From Alphaproteobacteria bacterium (GTDB lineage Bacteria; Pseudomonadota; Alphaproteobacteria; UBA9219), in assembly GCA_019233975.1 (NCBI GenBank), contig JAFALY010000024.1:1-42164 (forward strand): DNA of 42,164 nucleotides. Direction: 5' to 3'. Of this stretch, positions 30,676 through 40,768 are shown piece by piece. Numbering within the stretch: position 1 is the stretch's first letter; every line of letters begins with the position of its first letter. The notes under the pieces are model-generated. The model worked only from the letters and a program-made list of their open reading frames with translations, had not been told where the DNA came from and searched no databases. Both the position numbers and the translations under genes were made by a program.

Positions 30676-30914
30676 TCTCCATCGAAACGAATTTACTAAT
30701 TAAGGGCAGTATGTGCGGCTTATATTTATTCACTAGTCTAACTGTCAATAGTTTCTTTTGATGCACAAATACTGTTTATCATTAACGCGAAAAGCCCAAT
30801 TGATAGAAAAAGTTGGAGAAAGCTATTAAAGAAACCCTTATGCCGCAATCACAGTTTTATGATGAAGCGCTGCTTGCTATATGGTGGATAACTCATTAGA
30901 AAGACACGGCAAGT

Positions 30915-30960
<46 letters not shown>

Positions 30961-31051
30961 ATTATATAAAAAATAGCAATAAAATCAACGTATAAAATCG
31001 CGACAATTTTTACTTGTGTCCAATAATGTGGCCGTATGTGTGCCCAAGGGC

Positions 31052-31982: not shown

Positions 31983-34900
31983 CTAGCCTCCAAGTTGCTC
32001 AAGTACCTGTCGCGTGGCAGCGGGCAGGTTCATGCGCGTAAGGAGCTCGTCGACGATGATTAAGCCGACTGGCGTCCGGGCGGATTCCAGCACACGCATA
32101 TCCGGCGACAGAGGCAAGTCTGGTGTCAGTGGGCCGGAAAGAGCGATGGCGAATTGTCTATTATCCCGAGTACGCGTGGCAAGGAGCGGTGCAGTGACGG
32201 TGCCGCCTCCCGGCAGCGTAACTGGCATGCCTGTTTCGTAGACGAGCCCTTGGTCGGCGCGCCGGCGAAGGTCCTTTTCGAGGAGTCCGGCCGAGGCGTC
32301 GACCCGGCTCTGACCGAGCGTAGGCAGCTCGCCTCTTAGCAAATAGGCCAGGAGCGCCGCTCCAATATGCCTGTCGAGCATCGCGTGCTCGAACTTGTTG
32401 GTGAAAGAGCGCAGGCAGCGATAGCAGGAGCTTTGGCAATGGCCCTCGCAGCCTGTCAGGATTTCCTCCGCCAACCCGAACAGCCTGGCCGTGTTGCCGA
32501 CCAGCTGGCTCGTGAAGCCGGCCCCGCCCGGCAGCGTGTCGTAGAGGAATATCTCCGCCTCATGTCCCGACGGGCCGCGCGGCGTGAGCGCCGGCCGATA
32601 CTCCGCCATAATCTCGCCCGGCTCGATCTCAAGCATCCGGCAGGCGGACAGGGCGAGGGCCTCGCTCAAGGTCCGAAGCGCGATATGCGTCGAGAACCAG
32701 TCGGGCCGCAGGCAGACCGGTTCCTCGAACTGCATCGAAAAGAGCGCGATGTCGGTGATGAATTTTGTGCCCAGGACGATCTTTGGGCTCGTGAAACCAC
32801 CGGGGCAATTCTCCTCGCCGACCTTGGTCGGGTAGGGCCGCCGATGGGCGCTGCCGAGCAACGGCTGGGAGGTGACGCTCGACTCAATGCGTCCGCAGCT
32901 CGTGCAGTATGAATAGCCAGCGTTGTCGGGGCCGATATTGGAGACCAACAGGTGGGTCCGGGTGCGCAGGCTGCGCAGCCGCTCATTCGACCTCGTCCAT
33001 GACTCGCCCTCATCCGGCGTGTGCATGGTCAGCTTGGCACGCGTCGCCCGGCTCGATTCCGGCACATTGTCGGGCGAGGTCTCCTCGATCACGTCGATGG
33101 GGTGGGCGAAACCCACGGGCCGCAGCCACCAGCGTCCGGGACCGAACTTGGCGGAAGCGCCACAGGCCTCGCAGTCGAGGAGGTCGCCGGGCTGGGCATT
33201 GGTGATGCCCGTCTTCGCAAAGCCGCAGACCTGGCACTGGAAATAGATTTCCTTGTCCGCCCACGCGTCGCGACGGGCATCCTTGGACCGCGAATAGATC
33301 GCGCCCGAGGTGTAGCACTTTCCCGAAATCCAGACTTGGCGGCCCGGCGCATACTGGCTCAGCGCGATCGGCAAACCCTGCGCCGGCGTGAAGCTGAAAA
33401 CGGGATAGCCGCCCTTGGAATTGCCGCGATCGAAGACATGGAAGGTCGAGACGTCTGTAGGGAACGCATAGCGGGGCAGCACGCCGCTATACAGGAGGCG
33501 GTCGAGAAGCATCGCCCGGTTGGGGTCGGCCTCGATCTGGTCCTCGCCGGTCGCGGCGGGATCGGTATCGGCTTCCTCTTCGTCGATTCCTTCCTCCAAC
33601 GCACCTTCCGGCGGCAGCGACGCTGCTGGGTCGAATTCGATCGCCTTATCGATCTCGGCAAGGCAACTGTCGAACATGGTGGCGAGTAGGCTGGATCGGG
33701 CGGCAGCCGGAAGCTCGGCCGGTAGCCAGCCATCGACTTTGGAGCGCAGCTCGTCGCGGTTGGCCTGAAGCCAGGCCGCGAAGCCGTTCCTGTTGAGAAT
33801 GCCGCGCCCGGTCCGGAAATTCGCGACCGTGCCCAGCACCGAGAAGAGGTCTGGCGGCGCGGACGGGTCGAAACCTGGCAGCGTCGCTTCATGGAAGCGC
33901 TGGAGGAAGTAGCCGTAGACATGGCGCTTGGCGATGTCGGGGTTATCGAGCGTGAGACGCGGGTCGACGACCGGCCCCGAAATCATGTCGGCCGGTTCCC
34001 GGAAATAATGCTCGTCATGGCTGCTGTCCGAGCTACCGAAGGCGACCACCGTCGCGACGGCGTTGCCGCGGCGGCCGGCCCGACCGGCACGCTGCTGATA
34101 GTTAGCCCGGCCCGGTGGCATATTCCGCAGAGCGACTCCGGATAGCGCGCCGATATCGATGCCGACTTCCATCGTCGTCGTGCTCGACAGGATGTCGATC
34201 GCGGTGCCCGCGCGCGCATTAGCCCGCCAGGCGATATCGACATCCTGAAAGAGAAGCTCGTTCTCCTCGGCTTTTGAGAAAGCGTTGTTGTTCTGGGTCG
34301 AGTTCAACTGCGCCGTATGTTCGGCGGCGATGAGCGCCATCGGCGGCACGGGCGGGTCGGCCAGGGCGGCGGCGACGCTGCGGCGATAGTAGGATTTGCG
34401 GGCGATGAAGGCCTCGTCCTTGTCGATCTCCAGCGGTGCCACCACCCCAATGTCGCAGTCGAGGCAGCGCGTCACGTCAGGCAGCGGACGATGCACCGAG
34501 CGGCAGGACGGGCAGCGCACCCAATCACCTCCGAGCTCGATGGACAGATTCTTAGCGAGGATGCGCGGGGGAGAGTCCGACTGGTCGAGAAAGATAGTCG
34601 TGAGCGCGGGAAGCCAGCCGTCCCGAAAGATCTTTTTCTTGGCCGCGTCGTTCAGCAACCGGTTCATCGCGGTCGGGAACTTTCCCGAACTGCCTTTGAC
34701 CTCGTTCCCCCAGAAAGCCTGCGGCATTCCTTCGAACCAGATGCCCTGCTTCAGCCAGCAACGAAGCCAGGCACGCGTCACCGCGATCTTGGTCTCGGTC
34801 GTGTCGGCGAGTCCCGGTAACGCCGGCAACGCCGCCAACTCAGCGCGCTGGTTCGGCCGCTCGGCAAGCGAGCCGAGGGCCAACGCCTCCAGGCCAAGGA

Positions 34901-37526
34901 AGCGGTCCGTGATGGTCCGGTGGATCTCCTCCATGAGCGCGCGCGGACCATGGTCGGTCCGGTGCTCCATCCAGAGCCCATGCAGCGCTTCGTCATCCTG
35001 GACCGCGCGGGGCATCGCCCGCTCGATCGCGACGTTGGTGGCGAAGCTCTCGCCGGACGCCAGCTCGGGCCTCAGCCGGACGCCGAGGGCATTGGCCGCG
35101 AGCAGGACGGCGAAGTAGGCGTCCGAAAGCCGGCAAAGCGGCCGGATGGAGTCGACGCGCTGAAGACGGTCGAAGCCCCAGACGAGCAGGGGCCGCAGCG
35201 CATCACGGACGGAGTACATTTGCAGGTTCGGCGCAAGGCGCGCCGCCACCTGCCGCGAGTCCGAAAAGACCAGCACCTTGCGGCCGCGCAGCGGCGCAAA
35301 TCGCAGATTGTCCGGCGGACCGGGCGGCTGAATATGAATCTGCCGCGACAGCAATGTCTGAAAGGGCTGATCGCCCTTGGTCTGATGGTCCTGGACAGAG
35401 GTGCGATTGAACCCCGCCCGCTGGCCGCAAAGTCCGCAAGGCACGAACTTCCCGGGCGGCTCCGTCGCCGTCCCCGTCGCATTGCCGTCTTCGTCGGGAG
35501 GCGGCGCATGGCGGTCGAGGCGCAGGAAGACACTGCGCGTGTGCTCGGCCGCCACCTTCGGATTCAGCCGGCCCGTGTCGAGATCGTACAAAGCCTCTTC
35601 GCAGGTCCCGTCGGCGGGCTCCTCGAGCAGCAGGTCGAGAGGCTCCAGCGAGTCAAACCCGCCACCGGCCAGATTGATCGGCTTGCCCGCGCTCGACCAA
35701 AGCGCCTGAGGCTCGACGACATCGTCCGTGTAGGCGCGGGCATAGGAACCGCCGCAGTTCCGGCAGGTGTAATATTCGAGGACGCGCGATTCACACCGGC
35801 ACTTTTCCCGGGGCTGGCTGTACATCTTGCCGCAAGGGCCGCCGCGCTCGATCTCGGGAAGCTCCGTGCACTGAGGGTCCATGCACACCCAAAGCCCGGG
35901 CAAGCCGCGAAAGAAGGTGTGGACGCGGCAGGGCAGCAAGCCCGGCTCATGCTCGACGAGACGTGCGCGGCTACCCAGTGCGAGAAGCGCCGTCAAAGCC
36001 CTGTCCGCGGTAGCGTTCTCGACGCTCGGGAAGATGAGCTCTCCCAGCGACGCAATCGGCAGCGCCTTGCCCATCGTCTCGTTCACGACGAGACCGAGCG
36101 GACCGAAGGCCTCAAGCGCGTGATAGAGCTTGGCGTCGACGGTGTCGCCGGCCGTCGTTCCCCGATAGGCAAGGAAGCTCTGGACCGCCCGCGTCTGAAC
36201 CAAATCGTCGGCGCCCTCATAGAAGGCGTCGAGGTCGATGTCCGCGAGGACGGCAGCGTCCTGCGGCGAGCCCGGCGTCGCTCCCGGCCGATAAGCGAAG
36301 CTGCTTGTGATTGAGCGAAAGCTGTCCGGCGACGCTCCTGACAGTTGAGCGCCGAACTCGCGCGCATAGTCCTTGTCATCAAAGCTCGCGGTGGCGCAGA
36401 TGACCTGAAACCGGTCGGCCGTTATGCCGAGCCTTTCGCGCAACCGCCGGAGCAGCAGCCCGACTTCCGCGCCCGCCGCCCCCCGATAGAGGTGGGCTTC
36501 GTCGAGCACGATCATGAGCCGTTCTGACGGGTTGGCGGCCAGCCAGTCGCGTGTCTTGTCGAAGATTGGTCGCTCGATCGGCCGCATCAGCATATATTCG
36601 AGCATCGAGTAGTTGGTGACGAGAAGGTCCGGCGGGTCCTTCTGCACTTCGTCGCGCGTAATCAGTTCGGCATCGTCGGGCAGGGCGTTGGCACGGATGA
36701 ATTCCTTGGTCCGCCGGTCCTGCCATTCGCCCGAGCCGTACCATTGCCGGAGATCGAGCTTCGCCGGCCATTTGCCTTTGCTCTTCAACTGCTCCTGCAC
36801 CCGCTCCGCCGAGGCCTGGTCGTCGGACTCCGGATCGGCCGCGGCACGCTCGATATCGACATAGAAGTCTTCGAAGGATCTGAGTCGCTGCTGGTCCTTC
36901 TTCTTCGACCGCACGCCGGCATAAGGGGTGCGGCTCGTGTAGCGCGCGAAACGGGGCCGCCGCCCCGTCCAGCCGTCAAACAGCGACGCCAGACGCGTGT
37001 CGCCGAACAGCGAACGCAAACGGCCAAGCTGGTCGTTGACCAGGGCGTTCATCGGATAGAGCAGGATCGCGCGCACGGCCGGCGCAGCGAAGCTTTGCGG
37101 TCTCTGTTCCGCTTCGCGCGCCAGCTTGCCGAGGATCGGCAGCAGGAATGACTCGGTCTTGCCCGAGCCGGTCCCTGTCATGATCACCAGATTCTGACTG
37201 CCGACGAGGGCTCCCTCGATCGCCGCCGCCTGATGCTGATAGGGCGGGTCGTAGAAAATCCGGCGCTGCCGTCCCGAAGTTTGCGAAAGCGCTTCGTAAA
37301 TCCGAAGCGCCGCCTTCGGCAGCCCGCTTATCTCGGAGAATTTCGGACCGGGGGCGTAGCGGGGCGTGGATTCCAGATAAGGCGATTGATGGATGACGCC
37401 GGTGGCGTTCAGAAGGTGGCGGCGCTGCCGGATCAGCCCCTCATCGCCGATATGATAAGTTGCCTCGATATATTCGCACAGGGACTTGTGAAGTTCCTCA
37501 ATGGATTCCTTGATGGTCTTGACCAT
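31983..37526 (-). CDS. Very large DUF1998-type DEAH helicase, DruE-like (candidate anti-phage protein)
   Basis: The protein has 1847 residues. The start at 37526 forms TAATG with the stop of the gene upstream. Helicase core: Walker A TGTGSGKTES (about 117-126), LLYPMNALVNDQ, DEAH in VLDEAHLY (342-345), ATAS (378-381), KVLVFSDSRQ (about 750), then TTTMEVGIDIGALSG and QQRAGRAGRRG (about 1115-1154). A long Cys-rich insert separates the two core lobes (CxxC clusters at about 548-591, 697-700 and 1005-1024). The C-terminal DUF1998/MrfA-type zinc domain includes CTSC near 1541, LPGGAGF and four Cys in GCEGHCQSSCYRC (1693-1704). Size and layout match DruE of Druantia; MrfA is much shorter, and DISARM splits these parts between DrmA and DrmB. 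The exact system type is inference. Confidence 0.82.
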   Translation of the reverse strand: MVKTIKESIEELHKSLCEYIEATYHIGDEGLIRQRRHLLNATGVIHQSPYLESTPRYAPGPKFSEISGLPKAALRIYEALSQTSGRQRRIFYDPPYQHQAAAIEGALVGSQNLVIMTGTGSGKTESFLLPILGKLAREAEQRPQSFAAPAVRAILLYPMNALVNDQLGRLRSLFGDTRLASLFDGWTGRRPRFARYTSRTPYAGVRSKKKDQQRLRSFEDFYVDIERAAADPESDDQASAERVQEQLKSKGKWPAKLDLRQWYGSGEWQDRRTKEFIRANALPDDAELITRDEVQKDPPDLLVTNYSMLEYMLMRPIERPIFDKTRDWLAANPSERLMIVLDEAHLYRGAAGAEVGLLLRRLRERLGITADRFQVICATASFDDKDYAREFGAQLSGASPDSFRSITSSFAYRPGATPGSPQDAAVLADIDLDAFYEGADDLVQTRAVQSFLAYRGTTAGDTVDAKLYHALEAFGPLGLVVNETMGKALPIASLGELIFPSVENATADRALTALLALGSRARLVEHEPGLLPCRVHTFFRGLPGLWVCMDPQCTELPEIERGGPCGKMYSQPREKCRCESRVLEYYTCRNCGGSYARAYTDDVVEPQALWSSAGKPINLAGGGFDSLEPLDLLLEEPADGTCEEALYDLDTGRLNPKVAAEHTRSVFLRLDRHAPPPDEDGNATGTATEPPGKFVPCGLCGQRAGFNRTSVQDHQTKGDQPFQTLLSRQIHIQPPGPPDNLRFAPLRGRKVLVFSDSRQVAARLAPNLQMYSVRDALRPLLVWGFDRLQRVDSIRPLCRLSDAYFAVLLAANALGVRLRPELASGESFATNVAIERAMPRAVQDDEALHGLWMEHRTDHGPRALMEEIHRTITDRFLGLEALALGSLAERPNQRAELAALPALPGLADTTETKIAVTRAWLRCWLKQGIWFEGMPQAFWGNEVKGSSGKFPTAMNRLLNDAAKKKIFRDGWLPALTTIFLDQSDSPPRILAKNLSIELGGDWVRCPSCRSVHRPLPDVTRCLDCDIGVVAPLEIDKDEAFIARKSYYRRSVAAALADPPVPPMALIAAEHTAQLNSTQNNNAFSKAEENELLFQDVDIAWRANARAGTAIDILSSTTTMEVGIDIGALSGVALRNMPPGRANYQQRAGRAGRRGNAVATVVAFGSSDSSHDEHYFREPADMISGPVVDPRLTLDNPDIAKRHVYGYFLQRFHEATLPGFDPSAPPDLFSVLGTVANFRTGRGILNRNGFAAWLQANRDELRSKVDGWLPAELPAAARSSLLATMFDSCLAEIDKAIEFDPAASLPPEGALEEGIDEEEADTDPAATGEDQIEADPNRAMLLDRLLYSGVLPRYAFPTDVSTFHVFDRGNSKGGYPVFSFTPAQGLPIALSQYAPGRQVWISGKCYTSGAIYSRSKDARRDAWADKEIYFQCQVCGFAKTGITNAQPGDLLDCEACGASAKFGPGRWWLRPVGFAHPIDVIEETSPDNVPESSRATRAKLTMHTPDEGESWTRSNERLRSLRTRTHLLVSNIGPDNAGYSYCTSCGRIESSVTSQPLLGSAHRRPYPTKVGEENCPGGFTSPKIVLGTKFITDIALFSMQFEEPVCLRPDWFSTHIALRTLSEALALSACRMLEIEPGEIMAEYRPALTPRGPSGHEAEIFLYDTLPGGAGFTSQLVGNTARLFGLAEEILTGCEGHCQSSCYRCLRSFTNKFEHAMLDRHIGAALLAYLLRGELPTLGQSRVDASAGLLEKDLRRRADQGLVYETGMPVTLPGGGTVTAPLLATRTRDNRQFAIALSGPLTPDLPLSPDMRVLESARTPVGLIIVDELLTRMNLPAATRQVLEQLGG

Positions 37527-39007
37527 TACGCCCCCGCACTGGCCGATATATCGGCCGTCAACCAAAGATAATCTTGCAGAAATTCAATCGAAGATTCAAC
37601 TTCTGCGTTCGGAAGCCAATAAGCGAACAGGCTGCGGTCTGGAGAAACAGAACTGCCAAGCGCTATGAATCGGCGCTCAGCCCAGTTTGGGATCGGCGCG
37701 AAGAAGTGGAAATTCCGCCCGCTCTCGGCCTGGTCCATTCGGAAGGTCTGGGGAGCGGAGCGGGCGCAATCGATGGCCATTTGCAGCCGCCAGGCGGCAT
37801 CGCAACCTCGGAACCGGTCTCCCCTGAGCGGCAAGTCGAGGAATATGTCGGGCCGTCCGCCCGTAAGCTGGACATATCCCCAGATGTCTCCACCATAGGC
37901 CTGAGGCCGCCGCGCGACATAGCTACCGGTCAAGCCGTTCGGCTCTCGCCATCGACCCTTGTAGAAGCCCGCCGGGCGGGACGGGTCCAGGACGGAGAGC
38001 CCTTGAATATCACCCGCCGGGCCCTGTTGCGCGAGCAGCCGTTGCATGTGCTCGATCAGCGCTGCGGCCGTTTCTCTTCGCGGATGCCGGAGCCATAGGG
38101 CCTCCGACAATTCGATCATCCCGAATTGCCGAAGGATCGCGCCAAGATCCTCGCCGTCGAGGGGGAGCAACTGCCGTGCCGCGCCGCGGTACTGAACACG
38201 ACAGGCCATCTCGACCGGCAACAAGGTCGGCTCATCGGCAGACAAGCCGAGCAACAAGGCTGAACCGTCCGGCCTTCGCACAAAGCCCGGCGGGGCGGCG
38301 AAGAGCCAGGATGGGCGGGCCTGCGGATCAAGCGAGGTCACATCGCCAAGCTCAAGCAGGTCCCCCTGGACGACCAACTGTTCGACCATCGCCAACGCAC
38401 GGTCGCGGAGCTCAACCTGCGACGTCTTCGTCAGCCGAAACAGGCTTTCGGCAAGACGAGACGCCAGGGTCGAGGGCGGGCTCGACGATGGAGGCTGCGC
38501 CGGGGGTGCTGCCTGCTGGCCGCTCGGGGGCGGTCTGTTGAGGTCCATGTTCCGGAAGACATCGTCTCCCGCCGGGTGTGCCGGAGGCTGGGTCTGCTCG
38601 GCCCCATTCTGAGCCGCAGCCGGATTGGTCGCCGTAGCGGGCTGGGCTGGTGGAGGCGCGACAGCCGATGCAGAAGCTGGTGCTGTCGCTCCCGCAGCGG
38701 GCGTCTGAGCCGCGGGTGCCGGGGCGGCTGTCGAGCTGGCGTTGTCGCTCCGGCGGCCGCAGAAGGCGAGCGTACAGAGGATGATGACGATCACGACAAC
38801 GAAGCTGGCGAGACTGGACGTGCCGCTGTCTCCATCAAGCGAAATGCCGTTGATCCAGGCCACCAGCCCGATGGCGATCATGATCAGGAAGCCGATCAGG
38901 ATCGGGATGAAGCTATGCGTCACGAACGCGATGACGATCGCGCCGAGGATGACGGCCATATAAGCAAGGCGGTACCCGCCGCCCGCATACCTGACTTCGA
39001 TACTCAT
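37526..39007 (-). CDS. Membrane protein with Pro/Ala-rich linker, coupled to the DruE-like helicase
   Basis: This 493-residue protein has hydrophobic segments at about 14-30, 33-52 and 66-83. A disordered Ala/Pro/Gln-rich linker (about 88-180) follows, then a folded C-terminal domain of about 310 residues containing LLLGLSADEPTLLPVEMACR, GFYKGRWREPNGL and GGDIWGYVQLTGG. I recognise no family for the C-terminal domain. AAGGA lies before the ATG. The stop codon overlaps the helicase start (TAATG), so the two are made together. A membrane-tethered sensor or effector working with the helicase is a reasonable idea but inferred only from coupling. None of the known Druantia partners (DruA-D, DruF-G, DruM, DruH) is evident by eye. 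Confidence 0.78.
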   Translation of the reverse strand: MSIEVRYAGGGYRLAYMAVILGAIVIAFVTHSFIPILIGFLIMIAIGLVAWINGISLDGDSGTSSLASFVVVIVIILCTLAFCGRRSDNASSTAAPAPAAQTPAAGATAPASASAVAPPPAQPATATNPAAAQNGAEQTQPPAHPAGDDVFRNMDLNRPPPSGQQAAPPAQPPSSSPPSTLASRLAESLFRLTKTSQVELRDRALAMVEQLVVQGDLLELGDVTSLDPQARPSWLFAAPPGFVRRPDGSALLLGLSADEPTLLPVEMACRVQYRGAARQLLPLDGEDLGAILRQFGMIELSEALWLRHPRRETAAALIEHMQRLLAQQGPAGDIQGLSVLDPSRPAGFYKGRWREPNGLTGSYVARRPQAYGGDIWGYVQLTGGRPDIFLDLPLRGDRFRGCDAAWRLQMAIDCARSAPQTFRMDQAESGRNFHFFAPIPNWAERRFIALGSSVSPDRSLFAYWLPNAEVESSIEFLQDYLWLTADISASAGA

Positions 39008-39077: not shown

Positions 39078-39103
39078 CGCAACATTACTATCCATAATGT
39101 TGC
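39078..39103 (-). repeat. Inverted site copy 1 (palindromic recombinase or operator site)
   Basis: GCAACATTA and TAATGTTGC form perfect 9-bp arms (10 with the flanking C/G) around a 7-bp asymmetric spacer, read on this strand as TGGATAG. The arms and short spacer look like a tyrosine-recombinase core site or a dimer-bound operator. It lies about 70 bp upstream of the membrane-protein gene. Confidence 0.7.
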
Positions 39104-39208
39104 GCGCCATCTTCCCCCGAATTTTCAGCGATTTAGCGTGCTACTTAAGGCCGCCTCAAGCGTTTTGGCTAACGATAGGCGTATAAATAGCCCACATCCG
39201 CATGAGGT
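39104..39208. other. 105-bp segment between two inverted sites; possible invertible promoter
   Basis: The segment is bounded by the two 26-bp inverted sites and contains no gene. TATAAA at 39182-39187 could be a -10 box for the recombinase gene, although no good -35 box lies at the right distance. In the other direction TTGAGG with 17 nt and CTAAAT is a weak match. If the sites recombine, this DNA would flip and exchange the two promoter directions. Confidence 0.3.
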
Positions 39209-39234
39209 GCAACATTATGGATAGAAAGGTTGCG
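39209..39234 (+). repeat. Inverted site copy 2, over the recombinase start
   Basis: This 26-bp copy has the same left arm (GCAACATTA) and the same spacer (TGGATAG) as copy 1, but its right arm differs at two positions (AAAGGTTGC for TAATGTTGC), so 24 of 26 bases agree. It spans the start codon of the recombinase gene at 39217 and touches its ribosome binding site, so protein bound here would also block expression of that gene. Confidence 0.7.
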
Positions 39235-39873
39235 CGCAAAAGCAGCGGTTCGACGCGCCATTTCCCTGAAGCCAGCCTCTACGCGCCGGGCGGCGACCGC
39301 AAATATGTAAGCCCGGCCGAGCGGCGGCGGGTGCTGAACGCGGCCCATGGCCTTGATGCCGACCACGCTCTCTTCGCGCAGATGCTGGTCTGGACGGGCG
39401 CGCGGGTGAGCGAGATTCTGGCGCTAACGCCAGCGGCCTTTCGGATTGAAGAAGGCGTGGTCGCGATTGCGACCCTGAAGCGGCGCAAGCACGCGATCCG
39501 TGAAGTCCCGCTCCCAGCCAGACTCATGGCTGCCCTGGACCGGGCGTTTCGTCTGCGCGAGGCGCAGGCCGATCCCGAGCACCATCACAGGCGCTTATGG
39601 CCCTGGCACCGCGCCACGGCCTGGCGGTTTATCCATCACCTGATGGCCAGTGTGCAGATCGCCGGCGCCCGCGCTTCACCCCGTGGCCTCCGTCACGGGT
39701 TCGGGATCGCCGCCCTGCAAGCAGGTGTGCCGCTCAATATCCTCCAGCGGTGGCTGGGCCATGCCCGGATGACCACGACCTCGATCTATGCCGATGCGCT
39801 TGGCCCCGAGGAGCGGGCGATTGCCGAGCGGCTTTGGACGGGTCCTTGCAAGCCCGGTAAATCACTCGAATAA
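39217..39873 (+). CDS. Tyrosine recombinase / site-specific integrase, short form
   Basis: This 218-residue protein consists essentially of the catalytic domain plus a short N-terminus. Active-site residues seen are R63 (GARVSEIL), Lys in LKRRKHAIREVPL (88-91), R159 and H160 (SPRGLRHGF), H182 (RWLGHARMTT) and the nucleophile Y191 (SIYADAL). The first position of the usual HxxR box is Arg (R156). The start at 39217 is chosen because GAGG (39204-39207) is 9 nt upstream; the ATG at 39202 has no ribosome binding site. It is divergent from the membrane-protein/helicase operon. It may serve element integration, resolution of dimers, or inversion of the adjoining segment. Confidence 0.88.
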   Translation: MDRKVARKSSGSTRHFPEASLYAPGGDRKYVSPAERRRVLNAAHGLDADHALFAQMLVWTGARVSEILALTPAAFRIEEGVVAIATLKRRKHAIREVPLPARLMAALDRAFRLREAQADPEHHHRRLWPWHRATAWRFIHHLMASVQIAGARASPRGLRHGFGIAALQAGVPLNILQRWLGHARMTTTSIYADALGPEERAIAERLWTGPCKPGKSLE

Positions 39874-39985: not shown

Positions 39986-40768
39986 TCAGAGCGGTAGAAT
40001 GATGTCGTAAACCACATAAGGATAGCCGGTGCCGTGAGACGGCACTTGCGCTCCAAGATAACAGCCAACTCGATGTCCGTAATATGCGGGCGAGTTGGTA
40101 TTGCCTATCGAAATCGGATAACCACCATAGACGCCTTCGAATCCTGCGCCGTTGGCATATTGGGGAGGTGAGGGCGAGGGTGTGCTTCCGTTCACATAAT
40201 TTGATACGCTTATGCCAACGGCTGCATTGACAGCGTTACAGATGTCGACCGTCACATATGGCAATAATACGGCGAGGGAATAGCTCGTGCAGCTCCCAGT
40301 CTGGCAACTGCCGACGCCATAAACGGCGAAAGACCCTGTATACATGTATCCATTGTAGGGATTCGGCCATAGGGTGAGCCAATTCGGATTTGGATTTATC
40401 CAGTTTAGCCCACCCCCGGCGATCAGGCCGGTGATCGTGGGATTGAATATGTCGCAGCTGCTGTCGCCTGGTGCATTAGGGTTGTTGTAGTTACCTGCCG
40501 AATTCCACATCGTGGTGTTGGTGTTTTCAAAACGAAACTGGGTAGTTGTACAACTACCATTGGATTGAACCATTTGGACAGCGACGCCAACTTGATCCAT
40601 AAAATCGATAATCGCGTGCGCAGATATTTTTCCGCCCTCGCTATTCGTGCTTGGCGAGAATTCGCCAGAGCCAGCGGCAATGACGGCGGCGATGATCGCG
40701 ACAATCGCAATTAAGAACAAAATTGGCCCTAATGCTATACCACGAGAATTAGTCTGAATGATAAACAT
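39986..40768 (-). CDS. Pilin-like secreted protein, AT-rich
   Basis: This 260-residue protein begins MFIIQTNSRG followed by IALGPILFLIAIVAIIAAVIAAG, a short basic leader, a Gly at the possible prepilin-peptidase cut and one long hydrophobic helix. The usual Glu at +5 is missing, as in some minor pseudopilins. The rest is Asn/Gly/Ser/Tyr-rich with eight or so Cys (GSCTTT, SSCDIF, SCQTGSC, DICNAV, GCYLG), so an exported, disulfide-bonded fold is likely. Similar proteins with an N-terminal ALGPILF-type helix occur in Alphaproteobacteria without a defined role. Its base composition is far more AT-rich than the flanking island genes, so it was acquired separately or is a leftover of chromosomal DNA. 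Confidence 0.72.
   Translation of the reverse strand: MFIIQTNSRGIALGPILFLIAIVAIIAAVIAAGSGEFSPSTNSEGGKISAHAIIDFMDQVGVAVQMVQSNGSCTTTQFRFENTNTTMWNSAGNYNNPNAPGDSSCDIFNPTITGLIAGGGLNWINPNPNWLTLWPNPYNGYMYTGSFAVYGVGSCQTGSCTSYSLAVLLPYVTVDICNAVNAAVGISVSNYVNGSTPSPSPPQYANGAGFEGVYGGYPISIGNTNSPAYYGHRVGCYLGAQVPSHGTGYPYVVYDIILPL

Follow-up and report, generated by a model that had tools for sequence, protein, structure and literature searches.

A putative promoter-inversion switch, with its own small tyrosine recombinase, beside Druantia-type genes in an alphaproteobacterium

INTRODUCTION

A 42,164-nt stretch of alphaproteobacterial DNA (hereafter the window) carries, next to two Druantia-type genes, what is probably a short, fim-like promoter-inversion switch composed of a tyrosine recombinase reduced to its catalytic domain and that recombinase's own pair of inverted sites, although inversion, site binding, catalysis and changes in expression are all inferred from sequence. 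In the mechanism that we propose, the recombinase would carry out strand exchange in the 7-bp spacer that its two sites share, with crossover at 39088–39094 and 39218–39224, and so flip a ~103-bp segment that bears a single conserved promoter. In the default orientation this promoter would drive the recombinase, leaving the divergent gene on the left without a recognizable promoter; in the flipped orientation it would cease to drive the recombinase and would drive the left gene. Since the left gene has no recognizable promoter of its own, a flip would switch that gene on and leave the recombinase without a promoter, a loss that, by inference, would tend to latch the flipped state. In the window, where the cargo is DruD–DruE, the flipped state would correspond to Druantia ON and recombinase OFF, expression again being inferred. 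A broader idea, which we offer only tentatively, is that such self-limiting, latching invertons with exchangeable cargo are widespread in Alphaproteobacteria, and that with Druantia set to ON, as it appears to be here, defence becomes a heritable, all-or-none choice.

PAIRED SITES AND THEIR RECOMBINASE

Each site spans 27 bp, made up of a 10-bp arm, a 7-bp spacer and a second 10-bp arm (Table 1). The arms of the left site form a perfect 10-bp inverted repeat around the spacer; the right site has kept one arm, its outer arm AAAGGTTGCG being weaker or degenerate. A preliminary description of this DNA had reported two 26-bp inverted sites agreeing at 24 bases and sharing one spacer, and the coordinates bear this out: with one copy reverse-complemented, 39078–39103 and 39209–39234 are equal at 24/26 positions, and the two spacers at 7/7. 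The 105 bp that it placed between the copies (39104–39208) is correct under the 26-bp definition and becomes 103 bp between the full 27-bp sites. It had also placed one copy across the recombinase start, and the start codon at 39217 indeed falls within the right site, an offset (+9) that recurs in several relatives. No other match to the arm pattern with three or fewer mismatches was found in the window, and 100 shuffles likewise gave none; nor was a third site found in the whole genome, where only these two match with fewer than three mismatches.

Table 1. Coordinates of the predicted switch and of the adjoining genes in the window
Feature	Position	Strand	Details
Left recombination site	39078..39104	+	CGCAACATTA-CTATCCA-TAATGTTGCG; top match of the arms-only matrix in the window
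Right recombination site	39208..39234	-	TGCAACATTA-TGGATAG-AAAGGTTGCG; inverted, same spacer; second-best match of the arms-only matrix in the window
Proposed invertible segment	39105..39207		103 bp; based on reversed alignment to the window's clade
Leftward promoter-like pair	39184..39212	-	TTGCAC-17-TATTTA; faces DruD; -35 in the inner arm of the right site
Tyrosine recombinase	39217..39873	+	218 aa, catalytic domain only; Pfam Phage_integrase
DruD1-like protein	37526..39007	-	493 aa; PADLOC E=2e-107
DruE1 helicase	31983..37565	-	PADLOC PDLC00013, E=0, 1911 bits

The recombinase matches Pfam PF00589 with E=1e-19 and has an intact reading frame. Its catalytic residues R63, K88, R159, H182 and Y191 are invariant in the family alignment (A1), in which position 156 is K or R, thus meeting the R-K-(H/K)xxR-(H/W)-Y criterion of the tyrosine recombinase superfamily, and its structural matches are XerA, XerC-like and XerD proteins. 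It does not qualify as a FimB or FimE, scoring ~21 bits against NCBIfam cut-offs of 221–222 (PRK09870/PRK09871), and we found no publication on this recombinase family in the open-access literature.

Support for the proposed switch comes from comparison across this family. Homologues were collected from genomes, plasmids and viral contigs, giving 126 loci; a single-protein query of genome contigs returned no relatives, which an alignment query then recovered. A scan for inverted sites with equal spacers identified pairs at 46 of these 126 loci; 2520 shuffles yielded no pair. To avoid the equal-spacer bias of that scan, an arms-only matrix that ignores the spacer was applied, which, having been trained on pairs from the first scan, is not fully independent of it. 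With this matrix, the two top-scoring sites stand in opposite orientation before the recombinase at 57/126 loci, one of which is the window, so that the search of relatives proposed in the preliminary description did recover the same paired sites. The sites of a pair lie 122–148 bp apart, with one exception at 178, and the spacers are identical at 7/7 positions in 57/57 loci, including eleven pairs that the equal-spacer scan had overlooked. This near-constant spacing and complete spacer identity lend weight to the original suggestion of tyrosine-recombinase core-site geometry. Between loci the spacers vary (33 types), and within pairs the arms agree at a mean of only 13.4/20 positions. Single spacer substitutions hit both copies at once, as seen on comparing L082 with L081 and L027, and L076 with L087 and L088. 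Such concerted change, together with the 7/7 identity, would be expected of spacers that are exchanged or required to match for strand exchange, but not of operators or of a chance duplication; judged from the sequences alone, variable arms around identical, co-changing spacers mark a crossover region, not operators. Paired loci group together in the tree of the recombinases, and the supported clade that contains the window is paired in 17/17 rows.

Two candidates were set aside in the course of this survey. An integron-like, cassette-capture reading was rejected for want of a third site, and an inverted repeat near L024 was rejected as a pair because, once oriented, it lies at the 3′-end of the gene.

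PROMOTER AND SEGMENT ORIENTATION

A sigma70-like pair pointing rightward, toward the recombinase, is present in 24/50 inner segments, compared to 3.65 (sd 1.67) in shuffles, and a leftward pair in only 1/50; no excess of promoter-like sequences was found outside the segment, in its flanks. The preliminary description had taken the DNA between the sites to be a promoter region, which is supported for the family, whose promoter-like signal is concentrated in the segment, but only weakly for the window itself: its leftward pair (Table 1) is a weak consensus match that is absent from a stricter scan, and no recognizable promoter toward the recombinase was found in its segment. What that description missed is that the promoter seen across the family belongs to the recombinase itself, and this arrangement gives comparative support to the feedback on the recombinase that it had suggested. 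At 44/57 loci the closest gene on the left is divergent, as assigned by a simple ORF rule, and in the common orientation the left gene has no recognizable promoter of its own. Its product is often a surface or secreted protein: many have a signal peptide, features of a beta-barrel or a function in envelope modification, as judged by eye from translations without a profile scan.

At other loci, alignable segments are co-oriented in 49/49 pairs scoring at least 22, the top reversed score being 21.5. The window segment, when compared to its 16 nearest clade relatives, aligns better reversed in 14/16 cases (mean 13.4 vs. 7.2), and none of 2000 shuffles was as extreme, with the caveat that these were mononucleotide shuffles of weakly similar DNA. 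In an orientation test on 50 loci, the window gave z=-3.1 and L077 z=-2.1, the other 48 being positive. Thus the segment of the window appears to be flipped toward DruD–DruE, which is the simplest reading but one that derives from weak DNA similarity without read data. Leave-one-out nhmmer produced no output at such divergence, and the phage-borne loci were searched for a flipped state without success. L077, with its borderline z, is a second candidate for a reversed segment.

The preliminary description had named a single orientation in deep read data and in all relatives as an observation that would refute it, and it missed that nearly all relatives are in one orientation. The window, reversed relative to its clade, is the clear exception. 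The near-fixed orientation of the relatives means that flipping must be rare, conditional, or disfavoured and selected against. As to the ON/OFF promoter inversion that it proposed, the two inverted sites with an identical crossover region around a short segment are what such a switch requires of its sites, and the conserved geometry, spacers and reversed segment support it; inversion itself and the change in expression remain inferences.

ALTERNATIVE EXPLANATIONS

The near-fixed orientation would also suit an arrangement in which both copies are operators, at which the recombinase or another regulator represses the divergent promoters without strand exchange. The right site does cover the recombinase start, in relatives promoter-like -35 elements coincide in part with the inner arm of the left site, and autorepression is plausible as an added role of the sites. 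Binding, however, does not require identical spacers, yet all 57 pairs have them across 33 spacer types, with the arms the weaker conserved part, and the spacers change in concert; this alternative, already raised in the preliminary description, is therefore disfavoured, and we consider it quite unlikely. The same description had also entertained the left copy as a duplicate of the recombinase 5′-end, here taken as functionless. Read leftward, the left copy does contain two ATGs 15 bases apart in the register of the right copy, but relatives in which 40–140 bp separate the right site from the start codon downstream still have the pair, and even highly diverged loci keep identical spacers, which contradicts a duplication and leaves it scarcely credible.

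Another role for such recombinases, resolving the multimers of a plasmid or ICE or integrating it, with the second copy as an accessory and no switch at all, draws on the single-site members of the family, which are mostly on plasmids and adjoin parA, rep and toxin–antitoxin genes, and on several paired loci that are near conjugation genes. For resolution, however, one site per replicon suffices and accessory sites need no identical spacer; the paired loci fall in clades apart from most single-site plasmid members; no third same-spacer site or direct repeat was found in any paired locus; and inverted sites with identical spacers yield inversion. The window itself does not fit plasmid multimer resolution, since its two sites are inverted and belong to an island that adjoins host-type DNA, and we regard this role as very unlikely here. 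Finally, the family may invert while the copy in the window is decayed or locked, fixed in one orientation and now serving merely as a promoter for DruD–DruE. The degenerate right outer arm and the reversed segment without a recognizable promoter toward the recombinase are both compatible with a locked state, but the spacers still match at 7/7, the recombinase frame is intact with its catalytic residues kept, and one weaker arm is common among paired loci of the family; a locked copy is thus unlikely, though it has the most to be said for it among these alternatives. The inversion switch set out above remains the reading that we prefer.

GENOMIC SETTING AND CARGO

G+C content is ~52% up to ~31 kb and 61–67% from there to the contig end, one gene near 40 kb excepted. 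A tRNA-Leu gene (30914–30960, also listed as 30914–30963; 47 bp, 97.9% identity to other bacteria) breaks off abruptly after its 5′ half, where G+C climbs from ~50% to ~64%, and its 3′ half is missing here. Because the shift occurs just past this truncated tRNA-Leu-like half, the region past ~31 kb looks like an acquired island with its junction there, an inference from composition and a join that was not independently verified; the source genome is possibly a metagenome assembly. Within the high-G+C island, a gene at 39986–40768 has a low G+C of 47% and encodes a 260-aa protein with a hydrophobic N-terminus and no family match.

The preliminary description had pointed to a possible defence operon with a helicase, and its two genes do match the DruD and DruE profiles of Druantia. 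The helicase meets the DruE1 criterion for Druantia type I. In the DruD1-like protein, residues 177–486 match the DruD profile, and an N-terminal stretch of 176 aa, hydrophobic and rich in Pro and Ala, replaces the first ~45 profile positions. Based on the N-termini of relatives, DruE probably starts at the ATG at 37526, with a one-base overlap with the DruD stop. A full DruA–DruE operon is not present, as the DruD-like gene and DruE are alone from the switch to the edge of the island; the other island genes that were scanned gave no Druantia match, so the pair has no DruA–C next to it, in a search that did not extend beyond the island. The pair thus matches Druantia-type antiviral genes by profile, but its defence activity is unproven, DruA–C being absent and the DruD N-terminus altered. 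A DruD profile search yielded two further DruD–DruE operons, near which no recombinase sites were found, and in two alphaproteobacterial relatives two further large genes precede DruD in the operon.

COMPARISON WITH KNOWN SYSTEMS

FimB and FimE of the fim system are ~200-aa tyrosine recombinases without a large N-terminal domain, and act on a short promoter segment between inverted sites with 9-bp repeats, surface genes being the usual targets. The system described here shares with fim the small recombinase lacking a large N-terminal domain, the short promoter segment and the surface-gene targets, but differs in having longer, 10-7-10 palindromic sites in place of 9-bp repeats, in a promoter that is directed toward the recombinase in the state most relatives share, and in a recombinase outside the FimB/FimE families. 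Its segment is also shorter, at ~103 bp as compared to the 296 bp of the Escherichia coli fim switch (PMC5903667). The mad switch of Photorhabdus luminescens, in which one promoter inversion governs a fimbrial locus, resembles the single inversion proposed here, but is gammaproteobacterial and has a 266-bp segment (PMC5903667); its sequence relation to the present system was not compared. Among gut invertons, invertases and surface genes likewise occur near invertible promoters, but the neighbouring invertases are reported to lie, in general, in an orientation in which the embedded promoter could not drive them (PMC11892184), whereas here the promoter signal faces the recombinase. One survey that detected inversions from reads covered four alphaproteobacterial samples and saw no inversion in them (PMC5903667). 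The likeness to Druantia type I is confined to DruE1 and the C-terminal part of DruD1; the window has two genes only, and its DruD carries the added hydrophobic N-terminus. In the open-access literature searched, we found no account of a phase-variable Druantia system, nor of Druantia genes under an invertible promoter.

If the proposed switch is real, it would add a compact family of self-contained switches in Alphaproteobacteria, tie promoter inversion to a whole antiviral system instead of a specificity subunit, and exemplify an unusual logic in which the recombinase flips the promoter from which it is itself expressed. The spacer rule, 7/7 within a pair and variable between loci, could serve as a simple, sequence-only finder of such switches.

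OTHER MEMBERS OF THE FAMILY

Six prophage-like viral contigs carry the same paired switch beside cargo, which is an acyltransferase-like gene in L139, L140, L141, L143 and L144 and a different gene in L147; this suggests that the cargo is exchangeable. L028, L029 and L043–L046 have a single site; the plasmid block around them is conserved and also encodes a WGR-domain protein, parA and rep, and their role there is likely multimer resolution. Lastly, one family member sits beside CBASS genes (L026, 7842–15541) and another beside type I restriction-modification-like genes (L035, 4600–10989).
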